From Chaetoceros tenuissimus (Eukaryota > Bacillariophyta > Thalassiosirophyceae > Chaetocerotales > Chaetocerotaceae): 64,000 bases of DNA. Position numbers and translations under genes: made by a program. The stretch is taken from contig BLLK01000064.1 in the NCBI GenBank assembly GCA_021927905.1, forward strand, positions 58,440 to 122,439, given 5' to 3'. Positions 42,001-52,112 of this stretch are shown piece after piece. How positions within the stretch are numbered: the first letter of the stretch is position 1; the number at the start of each line of letters is the position of its first letter. The notes beneath the pieces were generated by a model that saw only the letters and a program-made list of their open reading frames with translations, searched no databases and was not told the DNA's origin.

Positions 42001-43640
42001 TCGATACTTTCGTAAGTCGGATTAGTCTAGAGAATACCAATGAGACGTGTGCGCCAAAAGCACCTTCATACTAACAATCTACGGTTAATATCACTTCGAC
42101 AAATTATATGCATACCCTTTTAGGAGGAGAACTTACCGTATGCAGCTCATCAATAACTACAAAGTGAAGTCTAGCTAGAAAGGTTTTGTATAGGACTTTC
42201 CAACCAGGTAAAAACGCGGCATGTAGAGTATCTGGATTCGTCAGCAAAATATTGCACTTCTTCGCAATTTCTTCTCGATATTGATGAGGAGTATCCCCAT
42301 CAATGATTCCCGCCCGTATATGTTTTTCCATCAGAGGGTGCTTCTTGATAATTTCATTTAGTTTTGTAAGTTGATCTTGAGCTAGTGCTTTTGTAGGAAA
42401 TATTAGTAATGCTGCGGATGAAGTAAGACATTCTCCATCTTCATTCGAAGCATTGCTCTTTGCAGCTTCCATATCGGATTTCATCACATCTGAAAGTATA
42501 GGGAGTAAGAAACATAAACTCTTGCCGGAACCAGTCCCTGTACATACTAAACAATGCTTATCGTCAAGTGCAGCTTCAATTGCTGCCGCTTGGTGCGAAT
42601 ATAGCTTTCGTCGAGCATATGAACCTTTATGTGCATCTAAAGCTTGATACGCTAGCGACGACTCTTCTTCAAGTCCATCTTCAGTTAATTGCAACCCAAA
42701 TGCATCTCTTATTTGCGATGGAATTAAATCAACGTGTCGCCTACTCAGATACTGATATTGACTTTGTCGTTTCTCTTTACTTCCAGCATATGCAGCTTGC
42801 TTCGGAAGAATGAAATCACTTTCTTCCTTTGAAGTATTCAAATTATCAAGATCCTTCTTGCCACTTCTATTGAAAAACTTTCTTAGCTCTCCCATTGCAT
42901 CACGAGCATCTTTCGATATTTCCTCTTGTTGCTGTTTACTCTTTTCAAGTTGCTCTTTTACAGAATAGCCTTGATACTTTTCATTATGAACCATGCCATC
43001 CATCAAGTTAGGATCCAATCCTCTACTTGTAGCCAAAGCATTTGCATCACTATCTTTGCTCTCTTCAGAAATATTATCTACTACTGTTTTATCTTTTTCG
43101 GTAGTTTTCTTTTCTTTCCCTTTTGAACTTCCTTTGACAACCTTGAATGATTTCTTCAAAGCAGCAAGTCTCCTCTTCGCAGCTGCCTTTGTACTCCCAT
43201 GCAAACCAGTTGCAGCCTTTTTCTTTTTATCAGCTTTACCAATATCCCCAAAGTGATCCGAAGGAAGGGGAAAACCTATCAAAACTTTTTGTATCTTGTC
43301 AGCATCACTTCCTTTCAATATATCTTCTAATTCATCTTCAAGTTCATCAGGTGCTTCTATATGCAATACATTTCTCTGATACAATTGGGAAATATGAACG
43401 AGCACAGACTGCTTTTCTGCAGGTATGATCTTTTTCAAAGATTGCAAAGGTATTTTAGTCCGTCCTGTTGCCTTTGTTAGGAATTGAAGTAGTGGATCTA
43501 TCGGATGCAAATTTTGTAAGAAAAAGATCAGTGAGAGATATGGACATTTTGAAGGAGATCTTACCAATCAGTTGCAAAGCCTTTAGAAGCTCATCTTGCT
43601 CGCTCTCGGCTTCTTTCTTCGTTATATCGACAGAAGACAT
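39071..43640 (-). CDS. HRQ1: HRQ1-type DEAD/H-box helicase (8 exons)
   Basis: Exons: 43640-43565, 43497-42137, 42070-41834, 41769-41119, 41045-40743, 40677-40529, 40452-39900, 39832-39071; 1,363 residues, all junctions GT-AG and frame-consistent. HRQ1 is a RecQ4-like 3'-5' DNA helicase linked to crosslink repair and telomere upkeep. The Walker A motif is CTGTGSGKS (Lys351); motif II is DELH (475-478) followed by YEGAFGAHV over an exon junction; motif III is SAT; FVWNPPL, GTSALELGIDLG and QQAGRAGR (motif VI) follow. The C-terminal Cys-rich part (GCPGCIQSVPC, then LCRKTG) is the DUF1998/MZB zinc region. The N-terminal 250 residues are lineage-specific and basic. The start lies 172 bp from the mobile element. 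Confidence 0.92.
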
Positions 43641-43812
43641 GGACCAAGTATAGTAACCAAAAGTTGGAATAGTTTACCTCATACGAACGAATCAACTCAT
43701 AGGGAAAGAAGGTAAAAAAAGAATGAAAGCCAAAAGAATTTTATCTCTTTTCTTGTGATGTGTTTTCTTCTTTCTCTCTTTTCTTCCCTTTCTTTTACAA
43801 CATGATGAGTAC

Positions 43813-44038
43813 ACCACCTACTACCAAGTTTATTAGGGATAAGACTTTGAGAAGACGATATACGTCGGAACGGATTCAAGTTGAAGCCAATGAATGAAGA
43901 AGCCAATGAGTCATCTTTTGCCAAAGGACATACGCTACAACAAAACTACATCAAAAGGTTTTGTCATAAAGTGAAACTGTCAGACTGCTTGATCCAAATA
44001 AGGTACCCTCCGATCACAGTCTACTACTTTTTTGCTTT
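43813..44038. repeat. Left block, first copy
   Basis: Direct repeat with 46448-46673. The two copies differ at G/C in GAGAAGACG and at A/G in the CCAAATAAGG segment, so the duplication is recent. Confidence 0.95.
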
Positions 44039-44055
44039 ATTCTATTATCTTTAAT

Positions 44056-45585
44056 ATGGGGGGTGATTTGCTTACACCGTCCGAAACTAGCGAACGGGTT
44101 CTTCGCAAAGAAGTGAACTTTTGGTGGCTGAATGACGAAACCTGGAAACGTTCAGATGATTTTTTTACATGGACAGACGAGTGCTATGCCTGTGGGAAAA
44201 GAACGGAAGCTCCAAAAGACCTTTTCTGTGGGAATTACTGGTGCAAGAGAGAGTCGCATCAAGTCTGTAAGAGGAGTTGGCACCCACAATGCTACAAGGA
44301 TTCTACAGATATGTTTCCTATTCATGAACCAGAGAAAGATAAGGATGGTCTGATTTGGGAGCAGAAGAAAACAGGCACTAGATTTATTCAGGCCAGAAAA
44401 GGAGATATGCTTTCAGCCCAATTCCAATGCGAATTCTGCTGGTTTGTAAATATTAACAAAAGGCATGGATCAGAATTTAGTGCGGGCGACAATGAGCAGT
44501 TGAAATTATTTAGACGAGCCATATTCTGGTCAAGAGAACCGAAAACTGTTAGCGATATACTGAAATATTGCGGTTATGCTCGCAAAAATTGCAGAGCTCT
44601 TGGTCTGGAATCTCCACTCCCCTTGCAAGGACCTTATCCAGTAGACGATTACTGTGGCATGACGATAGCCATGTCGATTTTAATTCATTCTCTGAGAGAA
44701 GGAAAGAATTCTAAATCTCATTTGCAATATGGCACTTTGGCAAAGATGCGGTCAGACTTCGTTACTGGTTACGATGCTGCATATCAACGTAATATTGTGA
44801 AGTTTGGAGTTGTGGAATATCGAGGAGCTCGATTGACAGATAGCTTTAGTCCTACCAATTCGACATTGTTCGATGCATTTATGCTTGGAATGAAAAAACG
44901 TACAGGAAGAGTTATTAACCAAAATCTGGGTATCTCTGTTGAGGTTTTGCTTGAAATATTGAAGCGCTACGATCTTGAAATCACAGATGAGGATGATGAG
45001 TTGCCCTACAAGAGATTAAGGGATATAATAGTTTGTGGTGCGGCCTTCGTCATTCTGTTTGGAGCCTCCTTGAGAGGAAATGAAGTTTTGATGCTTGAAA
45101 GATCCGAATTTGTGAAAATCAGAAACGCTGGAAAGACTGGTAATGTTGAAACCGAACATGTGGCAATTCCACTCATGGGGAGGTTCAAGGGTGAAACTGG
45201 AGATCGAAATAGTTTACTTGTCGTAGCAAGGAAGTCAAAAAGTGGAATTGAGTTTGCTCGATGGATCGATCAGTTGTCTGCTGTTTTGGAGATTGAGGAT
45301 AAAAGCGAGAGCGTTGGTCCAGCAATCTGTTTCGAGAATGGCTCTCTCATGAATGCATCCTTTTTAAATGCAGAGTTACACGCTGTCCTATTGGACATTC
45401 AGTCTGAGTTGCCAAACCTTGTCGATCCTTCTATCGATGTGAAGAAGAAGTTTAGCATATCCCGTTCATTTAGAAGAGGAGCTACGACACGGGCTCGAGA
45501 GGCAGGAGTTTCAGACTCAGATATTGCTTTGATTAACAGGTGGCGCTCCGTTCAAAACAATGCAGGAGGTCTTCCAAATCTTTGA
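44056..45585 (+). CDS. Tyrosine recombinase-like protein, stop before the catalytic Tyr
   Basis: The ATG at 44056 opens a 509-codon frame. The N-terminal third is a Cys/His-rich zinc-binding region (CYACGK, CGNYWCK, VCKRSWHPQCYKD, CEFC). The C-terminal half has the recombinase pattern: Arg340 in ASLRGNEVLML (box I), Arg473 in RSFRRGATTRA (box II) and Trp496 in INRWRS. The usual His of box II is not obvious; Arg occupies that place. The TGA at 45583 ends the frame, but the same frame continues with MHELYTEV, whose Tyr (45598) sits where the nucleophile is expected, and then runs to a TAG at 45654. The gene thus looks inactivated by one nonsense change, or needs readthrough. Assignment to Crypton-like recombinases rests on motif spacing. 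Confidence 0.75.
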   Translation: MGGDLLTPSETSERVLRKEVNFWWLNDETWKRSDDFFTWTDECYACGKRTEAPKDLFCGNYWCKRESHQVCKRSWHPQCYKDSTDMFPIHEPEKDKDGLIWEQKKTGTRFIQARKGDMLSAQFQCEFCWFVNINKRHGSEFSAGDNEQLKLFRRAIFWSREPKTVSDILKYCGYARKNCRALGLESPLPLQGPYPVDDYCGMTIAMSILIHSLREGKNSKSHLQYGTLAKMRSDFVTGYDAAYQRNIVKFGVVEYRGARLTDSFSPTNSTLFDAFMLGMKKRTGRVINQNLGISVEVLLEILKRYDLEITDEDDELPYKRLRDIIVCGAAFVILFGASLRGNEVLMLERSEFVKIRNAGKTGNVETEHVAIPLMGRFKGETGDRNSLLVVARKSKSGIEFARWIDQLSAVLEIEDKSESVGPAICFENGSLMNASFLNAELHAVLLDIQSELPNLVDPSIDVKKKFSISRSFRRGATTRAREAGVSDSDIALINRWRSVQNNAGGLPNL

Positions 45586-45944
45586 ATGCATGAACTGTAT
45601 ACAGAGGTCTCGCAAACGCTCAGTTCGCGTCTTCGCTTTTCTCAATCATTATAGAATTGTTTGTTGTTTCTATCAAATATTTCTAACATTTCTTATTTCT
45701 TAATAAATCTACAACAGGTAGTTTTTCCCTCGTCACATCTTGTCAGGGTTTTTTTTTTAGGGTGCTACAATTAGCAATGAGCTTTCCCACTGTTTCTTAG
45801 CCTTGGATGCCTGTTGCCAGCGTATTACTCACTAGATCTAAAGTCTATGGACAAATTCGGATCTTGACTTTCAATGACATGATACTAAAGTTCAAGACAG
45901 TCCTCCGAAATTGTAGCATCTGAGAGATAGGGATAACAATGGGG

Positions 45945-46447
45945 GGTATGTCGTATCTAGATGAAGGAAGAAGGTTCATCTGCTACTCGTGAATTGAGCG
46001 CTCTCAAGTTTAACTTGACTAGTCGCATAGAAGGTAAAAGAATAGAGAAGGGGAAGTGGATAGTGCAATCCATGTTTGGCCTTGAGCCATGAACTGACAG
46101 TCTCTTATTCTAGTCGATGTTTGCAAGAACTTAGATTCTTGAACTCTATTGAGTTAAAAGTCGCATCTTCTCCTTTCAAGTGAGCAAAGATACCCGAATC
46201 TCGAGTCTAGCATACGAGTCTAGCATACGAATCTCCCGAGTTATTCACCATGAGATTTTGTTCCTTGAACACAACTTGCTTCTTGGACTATCTCATAGGT
46301 AGAGGGTGAGCCTTGCTCTCCCCCCTGCCTTAATGTATCTCTGATACATTTATTTTGGACTATCTCTTCGGATCCATCGGCTTAGAATTAGTGAGATAAA
46401 CTTAAACCCGTAACTACCGTTATCAAGTGATCATTCACCGACATCCC
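45945..46447. repeat. Right block, first copy
   Basis: Direct repeat with 46690-47179. This copy has a 13-bp tandem duplication (46203-46215 and 46216-46228, unit GAGTCTAGCATAC) missing from the other. It contains several small inverted repeats, including CAAGTTTAACTTG (46005) and AATGTATC-TCT-GATACATT (46332-46350). Confidence 0.95.
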
Positions 46448-47179
46448 ACCACCTACTACCAAGTTTATTAGGGATAAGACTTTGACAAGACGATATACGT
46501 CGGAACGGATTCAAGTTGAAGCCAATGAATGAAGAAGCCAATGAGTCATCTTTTGCCAAAGGACATACGCTACAACAAAACTACATCAAAAGGTTTTGTC
46601 ATAAAGTGAAACTGTCAGACTGCTTGATCCGAATAAGGTACCCTCCGATCACAGTCTACTACTTTTTTGCTTTCCCACCCTCGCCACCCGGTATGTCGTA
46701 TCTAGATGAAGGAAGAAGGTTCATCTGCTACTCGTGAATTGAGCGCTCTCAAGTTTAACTTGACTAGTCGCATAGAAGGTAAAAGAATAGAGAAGGGGAA
46801 GTGGATAGTGCAATCCATGTTTGGCCTTGAGCCATGAACTGACAGTCTCTTATTCTAGTCGATGTTTGCAAGAACTTAGATTCTTGAACTCTATTGAGTT
46901 AAAAGTCGCATCTTCTCCTTTCAAGTGAGCAAAGATACCCGAATCTCGAGTCTAGCATACGAATCTCCCGAGTTATTCACCATGAGATTTTGTTCCTTGA
47001 ACACAACTTGCTTCTTGGACTATCTCATAGGTAGAGGGTGAGCCTTGCTCTCCCCCCTGCCTTAATGTATCTCTGATACATTTATTTTGGACTATCTCTT
47101 CGGATCCATCGGCTTAGAATTAGTGAGATAAACTTAAACCCGTAACTACCGTTATCAAGTGATCATTCACCGACATCCC
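46448..47179 (+). mobile_element. Short non-autonomous copy of the recombinase element
   Basis: Left block 46448-46673 and right block 46690-47179 are joined by about 16 bp of C-rich filler (near 46674-46689) in place of the 1.9-kb recombinase segment. The copy starts at the base after the long copy ends, head to tail. With no coding capacity it would depend on a recombinase in trans. A deletion derivative is the simplest reading; the reverse (gene capture by a short element) cannot be excluded. Confidence 0.75.
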
Positions 47180-47287
47180 GTGCGTACTAACTGAAATACT
47201 ATCTAGTGTCAAAAATTGAAAACGTCTTAAGCAAGATTGATATCGTAAGCAACATTTATCTGACGGAAACCGAAGGCCCAGAAGAGG

Positions 47288-48936
47288 ATGAGAACAAGGG
47301 AATATGGAAGTCGGAAAACCTTCATACAGGTTTGTGGAAAAAAAAAACGGAGACGGATGAATTTCCTTCTTCGAAGCGAATTCTTTCGAAGCAAGTGTAT
47401 AGCTAGAAGGAAAAGGCTCTCAATAATAGCGGTTCGAAAAAGTATGGCTAATAGATGGAATTCCAGATTTATTGAAGAAAGCTCTTCTTCAACATCAGTT
47501 GAAAGGGCAGAGGATGATCTCGAAGGCGAACCATCTCTTTCCATCAATGAAGTTGCCCTAGTAGTCACATTTGGATGTCTGTCGTTCATTTCCACATTAC
47601 TAGTTGTCTCTACAATCGTTCGGTCTAGAAAAGAGAATAACTTTTATCACAGAATTGTATTGCTCAAGAGTATTTTCGGAGATTTGCTGTTCTCGGCAGC
47701 ATTAACTTTGACGGTAAGAATATCTTTTTTGTAGGGTTTAATTTTTGGTAGCTTAAAACTTATCATTTGCTTGTAATATCTACTGTACAGACCGTCCCAA
47801 TGCCGAGAGATGTTGGTAGTATATATAGCTATCCAACGAAATCTTTTGGAACAGTGGCAACGTGCAGTGCCCATTCATTTACTATTTTGTTTAGCCTTCT
47901 TTTCACTTGCTGTGGCACTGTACTTTTGTACATATACTACCTATTTACCATGCGATTCAACATTTCAGAAGAGTCTTTTCGAAAATATGCAGAGCCAACT
48001 TTTCTGCTCTTATCGATCCCTGCCTCTTTAACTCTTCCGCTAGTGCTTCTTCGGGCAGATTTGTTGAACCCTGTGTCCTCAGAAATTCCTTTTTGTGGTC
48101 CTGCTATCTTCCCAGCCGATTGCGACTTAACTGAAGGAAATACTTGCATACGAGGCTCATTTGCAGATTTTCCAAAATACACACTCTTTACAATTTCCTT
48201 TATAGAAACATTTTGCGGTACGCTTCTCATAACTCTAGTGATATCAATGGGTTTGATTGTAAGCCACGTAAATAGAGCAAGTGGCATACCCGAAGAAGTT
48301 GGTAGTAGATTCATTTCAGAAAAAAGAAAAAAATTCATTGGATGGCAAGCTCTTGGACATATTGTTGTCTGCCTTTCAACGTGGCTTGTTTTAGGAGCCT
48401 CGATCCTGTTGAAAGAGAGAGGGAACTTGTGGGTCATGTCGCTGCTTGGTTTTCTAAATATGGTCCTATTCGTATCAAACGAAATCTGTTCACACAGGGA
48501 TGTCACGACAGATTCGTTCTACAAGACCGTGAAACTTATAATTAATTCACCTGATAGACTAAAAGGACACGGTTTGATTGAAAATATGAATTTAGTGGAC
48601 ACAATAAATGCAATGGAAAGACTTCAAACAATGAGAGAAGCGAGTGAGAAAGAAAAGCAAGAGCAAATTGATAATTACTGCCAGTACTCTTCTATAGACT
48701 CAAAGGCTGACAGTGGCATCTCTGCTAATATTGGATCAAAAAATTCAATTTCTTTGCAGTCCAATAGTAAATTGAGCGTTATTTCTTCAGTTGGATCCAA
48801 GTTAGAATCAGATGAGGAGAAAAATGAGATGGGTGATGGTGTAGTTGATAGAATTGAATCTTGTGATTCCATCTCTATGCACACTAGCAATGAAATTAAC
48901 ATTCTACGAGCGCCACAACCTGATAATAGGGAGTAA
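47288..48936 (+). CDS. Seven-helix receptor-like membrane protein (two exons)
   Basis: Exons 47288-47713 and 47791-48936 (77-nt intron, donor ACG/GTAAGA, acceptor TGTACAG/A) give 523 residues. Seven hydrophobic helices are visible (about 95-118, 128-146, 155-185, 200-222, 255-280, 310-330 and 340-360). A Cys-containing loop lies between helices 4 and 5 (FCGPAIF, then CDLTEGNTC), and the C-terminal tail is a long Ser-rich cytosolic segment. This topology is that of a G-protein-coupled receptor; no subfamily motif was recognised. The N-terminal 50 residues before the first helix are basic if the first ATG is used; later ATGs at 47357 or 47444 would remove them. It starts 109 bp after the mobile element. 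Confidence 0.7.
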
Positions 48937-49068: not shown

Positions 49069-52000
49069 TTACACTAAACCAAAGTCATCATGCATATGCT
49101 TCAAAACATCCGTGAATACAGCAGCCAATATATCATAGTTTCTTGTGGTTTCCTTGTGTTCAACACCAACTGCTTCGATCACAGCTGTTGTGTACTCCAT
49201 ACCGGTCGTTCTACTTTTCCCTTCGCTTTGATAACGATACATTTCGGGCTTGTATTTTGTTCCATGAGGGTGTTCCACCCCAGTTTCTTCGTCATCTTCT
49301 TCATTGTACATATCATCCCTAGAATCTTTTGGTTTCCCGCCTTCGATCCAGTCACTGCCGCCAACAGGTCGATAACTAACCTTGATCGAATTCAAGGCGT
49401 TATCATCACTAATTCTATCCCCTTCTTTCAAGCCGAAATATCTAGAGTGTCTCATCGCTCTCGTTGCATGAAGTAGCCAAGCTGCAGACATCATGAATTA
49501 GAAGTGATGAAATTCATGAAAGAGAAGAAAAGGAATGCAAGCGAATTACTTACTATGAGACCAACTTAATGACAAGTATGGCACACTTGCGTCACCCGAT
49601 CGATGAAGACTACCTTTATTATTGCCCTCATTCAAAGGTCTTCTTTTAGGTTTCTTCTTTAACATGACTGACTCCTTTAAACTCTTTTGCTCCATAACCT
49701 TGATTTCTTCAAAATGATAAGACTCTGGCTCTTCCCAAATGACACTATAGAAACAGGGTGGTGATGAGTTTTGAATGGCAAAACATCATAAGCTATTATC
49801 AAATGTAACAAACCTTTTCAGTAGTGGTACGTCATCGAAATTTTCACTTGCCTCATTTTCATCTATTATCTCTGTCTTCTTGTACACATAACCTACTTCA
49901 GTTGGATGGTCTACCCCATAACTCATGATAACATGCTTGATATGTGGTCGATCCCAAGTTGAATTCAAAAGATTTGGAAATGGAGATTCCCACCAACTTT
50001 TTTGTAGCTGTTCCCTCTTCGTCTTTAGCGGTTCGTCTTTCTCCTTCCATAAGCTATTAAAAGCATCGAAGATCTCTCCATTTTGTACATCTTTAGGTTT
50101 GAAGGCCGTCTCCCCTTTGGTCTTACATGGTGGTTTAGCACTTGGGTTGCACTCCTCGAATTCGACACCTATTGGTTCGAAATCAGTATCCCAATCTACT
50201 CTATCCTTTAGCAATGCTTTGAGTGCTGGAAAATTTCTCCATGGATCTTCACCACCTGCTTTTTCTATACCTTCTATAAGTTCATCCAAACATGCCAAAT
50301 TACTTTTTGAACCTGCAGCTGTATCTACATTATCACAGAAACCAGTCGATGTTGAAATGGGATTCAGCGTATGTGTAGATCCAAAAGCTAATGCAACACA
50401 GTACAACTTTGCATAAGTGACAATGTCAAAAGTAATGTTAGGCAAAAAGAAAATACATTGTACTTACAAAGCTCCATAGTCCGGGCATTCTTTTCCGACA
50501 TTGGCAAACCCATATTTTCCCCACTAATGACTGCTCGCAAAGGATTGATAGCTCCTAGAAGTGGCGCTGAAAGTCCTACATACGTCCATATATGTTTGTC
50601 AATCCATTCCAACCACTCATCATCTCCCTCAACCTGTGCTAACTCCCACAGTGTCGGGTGCTTTCGCCTACCTTTGTCAGAATCTGATGTAGTATCATCA
50701 GATTCATCATCACTTTTTTCATTTTCCTTTGAAGAAATATCATCTTTTTCTAAACCATTCACGTATGAATTCCACATATCATCAATGGATTCTACAAAAG
50801 AATTTGCTAATTTGTACATTTGATCCGCCACACTATATTCAACTGCAGCCTCTGTAGTATCTGCAACGGTTTGAGTATTGATCCAACCAACACTTGGACT
50901 ATTTGCTACTTTATCTTTGGCCTGCTGCAATTTCATAGCCATTTCTCGACGTTCAGCTTGCTTGACTAATCTTTGATAAGCTTCTTCATGCATTTCATTC
51001 TTGAGCCATTCTAAAAAGTACCTAAATACAATATTCCCCATACTATGAGCAACCATGATCCCAGGTTCCCCATTACTCTTGACAGCCGCTTCAATTCTAC
51101 GACGCGTCAATGTTAAAAATCCATCTCTAGCTTCCATAACATCTGGAGAAAGCCTCCAGTCATATGGCAACCCAATGATGGAAGTCACATCATAACCTAA
51201 ATTATCAGCCAACCATTGAGTCAACCAAGCGTAAACAGTATTGGTACCACCCACTAAAGTATTGGAAGCAATAGTATTCGGGGCCAAAGACGAAATAGCA
51301 TCTAACCCTTCATCCGGTCTCAATTTACATCCTACATCTTGATCATTTGCATCAGTCTGATTCAAACCAAGTGTCATACATTCTAAAAAACACGAATCGT
51401 CAAGGGTAGCCATCTGCAACAACATGTTAATATTCATCCAGACATAATCTTGCACTTTGACATCACTCAACAATGGATTGGAACAGGCTTTAAATTTCCA
51501 AGAGACCAATCTCGTACTTGCCAATCCCGGCAACAGAAAAATAGGCGGTCGTTTATTCTCATGTGGATTTTGAGATGACTGTTCCCCTCGTCCCATGTTA
51601 CGTAATTTATCTCTCATTTTGAGTACAGTTGGATCTCTTCCCCAGTGTTTATCCATGATAATGGTTGTATCTTGTTCTTCGGTAGTAGATGAAGTTTGCG
51701 ATGGATCATCACCACCGTATATAGCTGTTGCATCAATTTTGACCGCTTCCGTTTCGACAGTGCTAGAGGGTGGATGCCAGCATTCTTCTTGTTCCGTTTG
51801 ACAGGAAGGATCGGAATGGAGTGGATGATAGAAACTATCGTCAATTTCATCTGGGATCGATTGCGAATCTGATTCTTGACATGATTCATCTTTAGATGTG
51901 TTTTGTGTATCATTCTTTGAATCCTTGTTTATTTCAAATGCATGTGCTAGAATCTTATTGGATGGTTGCTGTACAATTTTTACATCTTGCAATATAACAA

Positions 52001-52112
52001 ATGCAACAAGTACCAAGAACTTGATTTGCTTTCCAAGTACAGGCGATGATATTGTTTGTCTGTAGCTATTTGTTCTTTTTGTGGGTTGCTTCATCTTTGA
52101 AATCTTTTCCAT
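49069..52112 (-). CDS. PDAT: Phospholipid:diacylglycerol acyltransferase (4 exons)
   Basis: Exons: 52112-50468, 50387-49814, 49744-49554, 49481-49069; 940 residues. PDAT moves a fatty acyl chain from a phospholipid to diacylglycerol, making triacylglycerol. A single membrane anchor (about 30-47) is followed by a lumenal LCAT-fold domain: PIFLLPGLASTRL, the lid region GLPYDWRLSP, and the nucleophile Ser357 in AHSMGN. The catalytic Asp791 (GDASVPY) and His912 (GVEHKE) are both present, so all three residues of the triad can be named. An acidic insertion (about 440-480) interrupts the domain. The second exon might begin at 50406 instead. Its donor GTTTGT is weaker than the others. Diatoms use PDAT for oil build-up under stress. 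Confidence 0.92.

Follow-up and report, generated by a model that had tools for sequence, protein, structure and literature searches.

A recombinase-only element with split direct repeats in Chaetoceros tenuissimus and its probable descent from tyrosine-recombinase retrotransposons

Definitions of the PAT, DIRS and Ngaro elements are given in PMC4157794. The Ngaro elements of Cafeteria have the structure A1-[ORFs]-B1A2B2, where ORFs are open reading frames, and their tyrosine recombinases (YRs) carry a conserved His-X-X-Arg motif (PMC8547959), and 15 Ngaro families are described in Ectocarpus (PMC12477816). In Trypanosoma cruzi, the SIRE element corresponds to the A2-B2 part of VIPER with an exclusive internal region of ~30 bp (PMC6681497; PMC12278014), and this part of VIPER had initially been presented as a truncated, non-autonomous version (PMC6681497). 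The YR elements called Cryptons carry short direct repeats at their termini, and non-autonomous forms of them are known in animals (PMC3212892, PMC4157794). Here we describe a YR-bearing element at positions 43812-47179 of a 64,000-nucleotide stretch of the diatom Chaetoceros tenuissimus, which is referred to below as the window (C50:58440-122439; genome of 41 Mb in 68 contigs). At a probability of about 0.82, we consider it to be a single insertion of a split-direct-repeat YR retrotransposon (A1-YR-B1-A2-C-rich-B2), of a family that lost gag, reverse transcriptase (RT) and RNase H and kept the recombinase.

Repeat structure of the window element and its recurrence

The order across 43812-47179 is left block (A), recombinase segment, right block (B), left block, 16-bp C-rich stretch and right block, and its features are the following.

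43812..44038 (+): A1 repeat, left terminus of the element, 227 bp, 2 mismatches to A2
44039..44055 (+): leader of 17 nt from A1 to the recombinase ATG, identical in the copies at C54 and C16
44056..45585 (+): tyrosine-recombinase ORF, 509 residues, aligned with the YR ORFs of RT-bearing elements; its TGA stop precedes the conserved Tyr
45586..45654 (+): in-frame stretch past the stop, corresponding to the recombinase C-terminus; Tyr codon at 45598-45600
45941..45946 (+): G-run, polypurine-tract-like, at the start of B1
45945..46446 (end 46446/7) (+): B1 repeat, 0 of 489 aligned bases different from B2
46447..46673 (+): A2 repeat, abutting B1, with one shared C; 225 of 227 bases identical to A1
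46674..46689 (+): conserved C-rich 16-mer CCCACCCTCGCCACCC between A2 and B2
46690..47179 (+): B2 repeat, right terminus of the element, 489 of 489 aligned bases as in B1

The first-pass annotation of this DNA had described two end blocks, each present twice in the order left-gene-right and then left-right, and these were recovered at 43812-44038 and 46447-46673 (left) and at 45945-46446 and 46690-47179 (right). The copies abut without a spacer, as had been stated, and share one C at the junction. The high identity of the block pairs was likewise confirmed (225/227 for A, 489/489 aligned bases for B), and B1 contains in addition a 13-bp tandem unit, at 46202-46234, that is not in B2. Repeat pairs of such length and identity are far beyond chance. 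The recombinase segment said to be missing from the second unit corresponds to 44039-45944 (1906 bp), and the reported lack of terminal inverted repeats agrees with a search of 43000-48200, in which no inverted repeats of at least 20 bases were found (seed 12). The element shows the split-repeat arrangement A1...B1-A2-B2, in which A1 equals A2 and B1 equals B2.

The right ends of 19 loci were compared, namely those for which this part of the element had been retrieved, leaving aside the other recombinase loci (L022, L034-L047). They belong to five families, namely F1, the family of the window element (3 loci), F2 (2), F4 (3), F5 (7) and F8 (4). A G-run precedes the first or only B in all 19 loci. 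The order B1-A2-C-rich-B2 is present in 12 of the 19, that is in 11 loci beyond the window, from three other families, and the C-rich stretch stands ahead of B2 in 12/12 loci that have a B2. The other seven loci have one B, the A2-B2 part being absent from 2/3 loci of F1, 1/3 of F4, 2/7 of F5 and 0/4 of F8; the two F2 loci also have one B. No permuted A2-B2 was found within 441 bp to the left of A1 at C57, the one single-B copy of an RT-bearing family in which A1 was reached. The C-rich sequence is CCCACCCTCGCCACCC in F1, F4 and F8, identical over 16/16 bases in the two families other than that of the window, and ACCCACCCACCCATCCC in F5. The genome contains seven exact copies of the 19-mer TTTCCCACCCTCGCCACCC, all of them between an A2 and a B2. 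Five further places match it with up to 3 mismatches, compared with two for a reversed-pattern control; one of them (C61:41159) comes after a sequence resembling the end of A (77% over 66 bases), and the other four, inspected by eye, have no such surroundings. The 16-bp C-rich stretch of the first-pass annotation is thus present, at 46674-46689, but it is not filler, since the same 16 bases stand at the A2-B2 junctions of other families, and this conservation marks it as a feature of the element type rather than debris of a deletion. Together with the far-left position of A1, the repeat order points to the split-direct-repeat structure of one retrotransposon.

A tRNA-like nature of the 16-mer was also considered and rejected, as ARAGORN found no tRNA gene in the four F8 loci or the window. 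The B blocks of three families (window 46995-47110, L023:4070-4180 and L027:3430-3540) contain two successive hairpins, the first of them G/C-rich, and they fold better than shuffled sequences in two cases (z -2.3 and -2.7) and not in the third (z -0.6). The neighbouring genes are a DEAD-box helicase directly to the left (42104-43567, -) and, to the right, an LCAT-family acyltransferase (50388-52112, -).

The recombinase gene and the other recombinase-only copies

The end blocks were also used to search the genome. Among the matches listed, the left block is found twice in the window, at C54, at C16 (in three pieces), alone at C29 and as a fragment at C14. The right block is found twice in the window, at C54 and C16 (97%) and at C37 and C21 (77%), with pieces of ~53 bases at C29 (two) and C57 (one). 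The ends of the window element recur at C54 and C16, in flanks that match neither one another nor those of the window. The left end of A1 is also common to C29, and the right end shared by window, C54 and C16 is GACATCCC; the flanks differ here too. Common ends in unrelated flanks indicate a mobile element and not a local segmental duplication, and the earlier proposal of a mobile recombinase-type element with fixed ends was in this respect correct.

The copies at C54 and C16 have the structure A-YR-B, with no second A-B unit, and differ from one another by 8 of 1548 bases in the recombinase and by 0 of 490 in B. No free-standing A-C-rich-B unit of the family was found among the left-block matches listed in the genome. 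Compared with the C54 copy, the window element differs at 3/489 bases in B and at 55/1539 in the recombinase region (44047-45585), B thus being far more conserved, either by constraint or by exchange between copies. The left block at C16 (L008, C16:3406677-3407841) contains two inserts that, by eye, resemble miniature inverted-repeat transposable elements, with inverted ends and TA on both sides.

The lone A block at C29 (C29:77914-78138, -; L004) lies within a decayed element, copia-like in appearance when inspected by eye. It ends at the same base (GCTTT) as the A of the split-repeat copies and is followed by neither a C-rich stretch nor a B. It may be an aborted insertion; a clean empty site could not be demonstrated, as 11 other loci match one side of the insert only, within the flanks compared.

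The ORF of the window copy ends ahead of MHELY, the stretch that holds the conserved Tyr, whereas the frames at C54 and C16 are open and run through it. At the place where LRG or LRD stands in the window copy and in the other families that cover it, the latter two have SLKGNE and so share a Lys at the presumed catalytic Arg. The usual H-x-x-R box has the form R-S-F/L-R (R-S-F-Q in one row; window residues 470-475), with Arg for the usual His in the rows aligned there. The window recombinase had no significant match in Pfam or PHROGs and no match in a PDB sequence search, and the call therefore rests on motifs and on the RT-bearing relatives. A weak match to DUF1168 (best E 0.0049, 2 of 10 members) was below the cut-off where one was given, and a single-sequence structure model was unusable, with a predicted local distance difference test score (pLDDT) of 32. 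With respect to the pattern R...RxxR...W...Y, the window ORF aligns with its relatives, its stop precedes the Tyr and no family library gave it a significant match. A search of IMG/VR yielded no confirmed relatives of either the YR or the RT.

The ratio of non-synonymous to synonymous substitutions (dN/dS) was 0.79 between window and C54, 0.64 between window and C16, and 0.34 between C54 and C16, the last on 9 changes. The recombinase-only family looks weakly constrained and probably depended on enzymes made by other families.

Relatives with reverse transcriptase and a gene-free family

Recombinase matches were found at 31 places in the genome. Out of 30 loci taken for these matches, 22 have homology to the RT-RNase H protein of the C32 element. 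The eight others are the window, C54 and C16 copies (L018-L020), L026 and L039, which belong to places whose RT match sits further upstream, and L044, L046 and L047, which are partial recombinase matches. The RT-bearing relatives are ~9 kb long, encode a gag-like ORF, RT-RNase H and the recombinase, and end in the B1-A2-B2 order. At C38 and C32, a gag-like frame and an RT-RNase H frame of 1275 or 1385 residues are followed by an overlapping recombinase frame. In both, A1 lies at the far left and B1-A2-C-rich-B2 at the end, with an A of 433 bp (100%) and a B of 478 bp (100%) at C38, and an A of 204 bp (99%) and a B of 377 bp (100%) at C32. This gene order is Ngaro-like, with the YR downstream of RT-RNase H and the internal repeats after the YR. 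The three aligned RT stretches (C32, C38 and C29) have in common an FGDIDLG motif and a YIDD or YVDD box, which we take to be RT motifs. No Pfam match to a methyltransferase domain was obtained, in a scan that found RT only weakly, in two of the three stretches.

The C32 RT-RNase H protein has no match in the 64-kb window, and with just 17 nt between A1 and the start of the YR, the window element has no room for RT-RNase H. The site of this 17-nt leader corresponds to the position of the gag-like ATG in the RT-bearing relatives, in which the first ATG follows A1 within about 16 nt (C32) and 43 nt (C38). Since RT and RNase H are found in the C32 and C38 elements and are absent from the window element, the latter is a derivative and not a full member of the split-repeat YR retrotransposons.

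A tree was built from 13 of the 17 aligned recombinases, without C29y, C21F5, C23 and C43, which were fragments or a near-duplicate; it was midpoint-rooted without outside sequences, and the position of its root is therefore provisional. In this tree, the recombinases of the window, C54 and C16 form a clade (100/100) within the RT-bearing rows. Because the recombinase-only family nests among RT-bearing families, RT was probably lost from it; the nesting fails if the root falls on the branch of the window clade itself. The three copies do not differ at the A1-leader-ATG junction, so that a single loss is the simplest account.

In another family, F8, four sites carry A1-A2 pairs at a distance of 4.5-5.3 kb, and C44 has a single A. 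The copy that was read through (C32:3290750 on) has no frame of at least 125 residues between A1 and B1, nor any tblastn match to the C32 frames. The right flanks differ among the four sites, which means that split-repeat elements without these genes have spread in the genome, presumably in trans. Diverged internal tandem repeats are present upstream of B1 in F8 elements (L075, and the inner part of L072).

Alternative readings, route of movement and comparison with known systems

The first-pass annotation read the locus as an autonomous long element with a separate short, dependent derivative inserted at its end. The two units do have both ends in common and abut exactly. However, three other families show the same order, with the C-rich stretch ahead of B2, at 11 loci, the copies read far enough to the left have an A1 there (C32 and C38, and the A1-A2 pairs of F8), and no solo short unit is among the left-block matches listed. 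The long part does not look autonomous either, since it carries a truncated recombinase and no RT. A long element plus a separate derivative is therefore very improbable, and by analogy this reading repeats the misreading of SIRE and VIPER. Still less probable is a local segmental duplication with an internal deletion and random filler, or an assembly error. Such an origin would agree with the two units being each other's closest relatives, but the 16-mer is identical at the A2-B2 junctions of other families and no host flank is included. The units moreover differ by 2 substitutions and the 13-bp unit, and are thus not one sequence assembled twice.

A more serious alternative, which we regard as possible but unlikely, is that the YR-only family moves as DNA in the manner of Cryptons, an A-YR-B circle being excised by a recombinase and inserted elsewhere, and that the A2-B2 part of the window is a leftover of its ancestry. 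C54 and C16 are close copies at unrelated sites that both lack A2-B2, for which one loss followed by spread as DNA is the simplest account. The YR is also the sole gene kept, with open ORFs at C54 and C16 and a dN/dS of 0.34 between them, on few changes. On the other hand, A2-B2 is also absent in RT-bearing families (F5 2/7, F4 1/3, F2 2/2), so that independent losses are plausible, the Lys at the presumed catalytic Arg of C54 and C16 argues against self-mobilisation, the window copy is truncated, and dN/dS between the window and these copies is 0.64-0.79. Compared with a Crypton, a YR-only DNA transposon without split repeats, the window element agrees in coding for a YR only and disagrees overall, because it has split repeats and the conserved A2-B2 insert and its YR nests among RT-bearing elements. 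That a YR retrotransposon shed its RT and then spread as a recombinase-only DNA element, with one copy having split repeats and two lacking them, is likewise doubtful.

Several points weigh against a retrotransposon family that lost its RT. The genome was searched for RT with one query, and no RT-bearing member of the window family was found in the assembly; the next YR is 50% identical to that of the window, and its two loci have truncated YR frames. The Pfam RVT_1 match was below the cut-off in two of the three RT stretches (E 0.0036 and 0.0096) and absent in C38. In the tree, the sister of the window, C54 and C16 clade is C37/C21 (93/93, under the threshold of the tool), one row (C13) is very long and the tool gave a long-branch warning for C32 with C38. 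The window and C32 elements have 38 bp in common in BLAST at E 1e-5, around the 16-mer, and the choice of a helper family is a guess; their A-block starts look alike by eye. A2-B2 is present in one of the three YR-only copies, so that a retrotransposition route after the loss of RT is not directly seen in the family. The bases shared at the flank junctions are C (window), CC (C54, C16 and C32), TCCCA (C38 and C57) and CA only (C48), and no longer target duplication was seen at these junctions; such cores of 1-5 bases are partly within chance, as 1-2 bases may be.

The window element was most likely moved in trans. Its RNA would be copied by RT and RNase H from an RT-bearing family and made into a circle, in which the internal B1-A2 junction would serve as template for rejoining the ends. 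A recombinase would then insert this circle at a short, mostly C-rich core without a longer target duplication. The family would thus borrow RT and probably the recombinase too, and copies without A2-B2 could result from recombination of B1 with B2, or of the B1-A2 junction with the right end through their cores. The G-run ahead of B1 looks like a polypurine tract, and the C-rich stretch ahead of B2 may act as a signal for priming or joining, or may base-pair with this G-run in the RNA.

With Ngaro elements, which are known in stramenopiles (PMC8547959, PMC12477816), the window element has the split direct repeats in common and its RT-bearing relatives the order ORF1, RT-RNase H and YR. The window family differs from them by the lack of gag and RT-RNase H and by the Arg for the usual His; the likeness is one of structure, as the tree contains no outside Ngaro sequences. 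In VIPER and SIRE, A2 and B2 are also parted by a short exclusive stretch, of about 30 bp compared with 16 bp in the window. SIRE is however a short interspersed repeat, whereas the window family has no free A-C-rich-B copy among the left-block matches listed. Cryptons, among them CryptonS of oomycetes and a diatom in the sources cited above, resemble the window family by their YR-only coding, short direct repeats at the ends and lack of terminal inverted repeats. They differ in that the window family has no TATGG ends and has split repeats, a polypurine-like G-run and a position among RT-bearing elements, and these last three features argue for descent from a retrotransposon. TOC1-like and other non-autonomous split-repeat elements have split repeats without the full gene set; the window family differs from TOC1-like elements by keeping its recombinase, and F8 is the closer parallel. 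Literature searches aimed at RT-less or YR-only split-repeat elements, covering open-licence papers, gave no description of one.

Full, recombinase-only and gene-free split-repeat elements occur side by side in this genome. The G-run at B1 and the C-rich stretch at B2 persist across families with repeats that otherwise can hardly be aligned, and are a candidate signal for the priming or joining of complementary DNA, a step that to our knowledge is poorly understood in YR retrotransposons. The recombinase-only family bears on the question whether YR retrotransposons can revert to Crypton-like DNA elements, and a loss of RT followed by spread as DNA, if true, would run in the opposite direction to the one proposed for Cryptons and YR retrotransposons. 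The natural misreading of such a locus as a long plus a short element is corrected here, with a precedent in SIRE and VIPER. Split-repeat YR retrotransposons as such are known, and the recombinase-only family is the unusual part.

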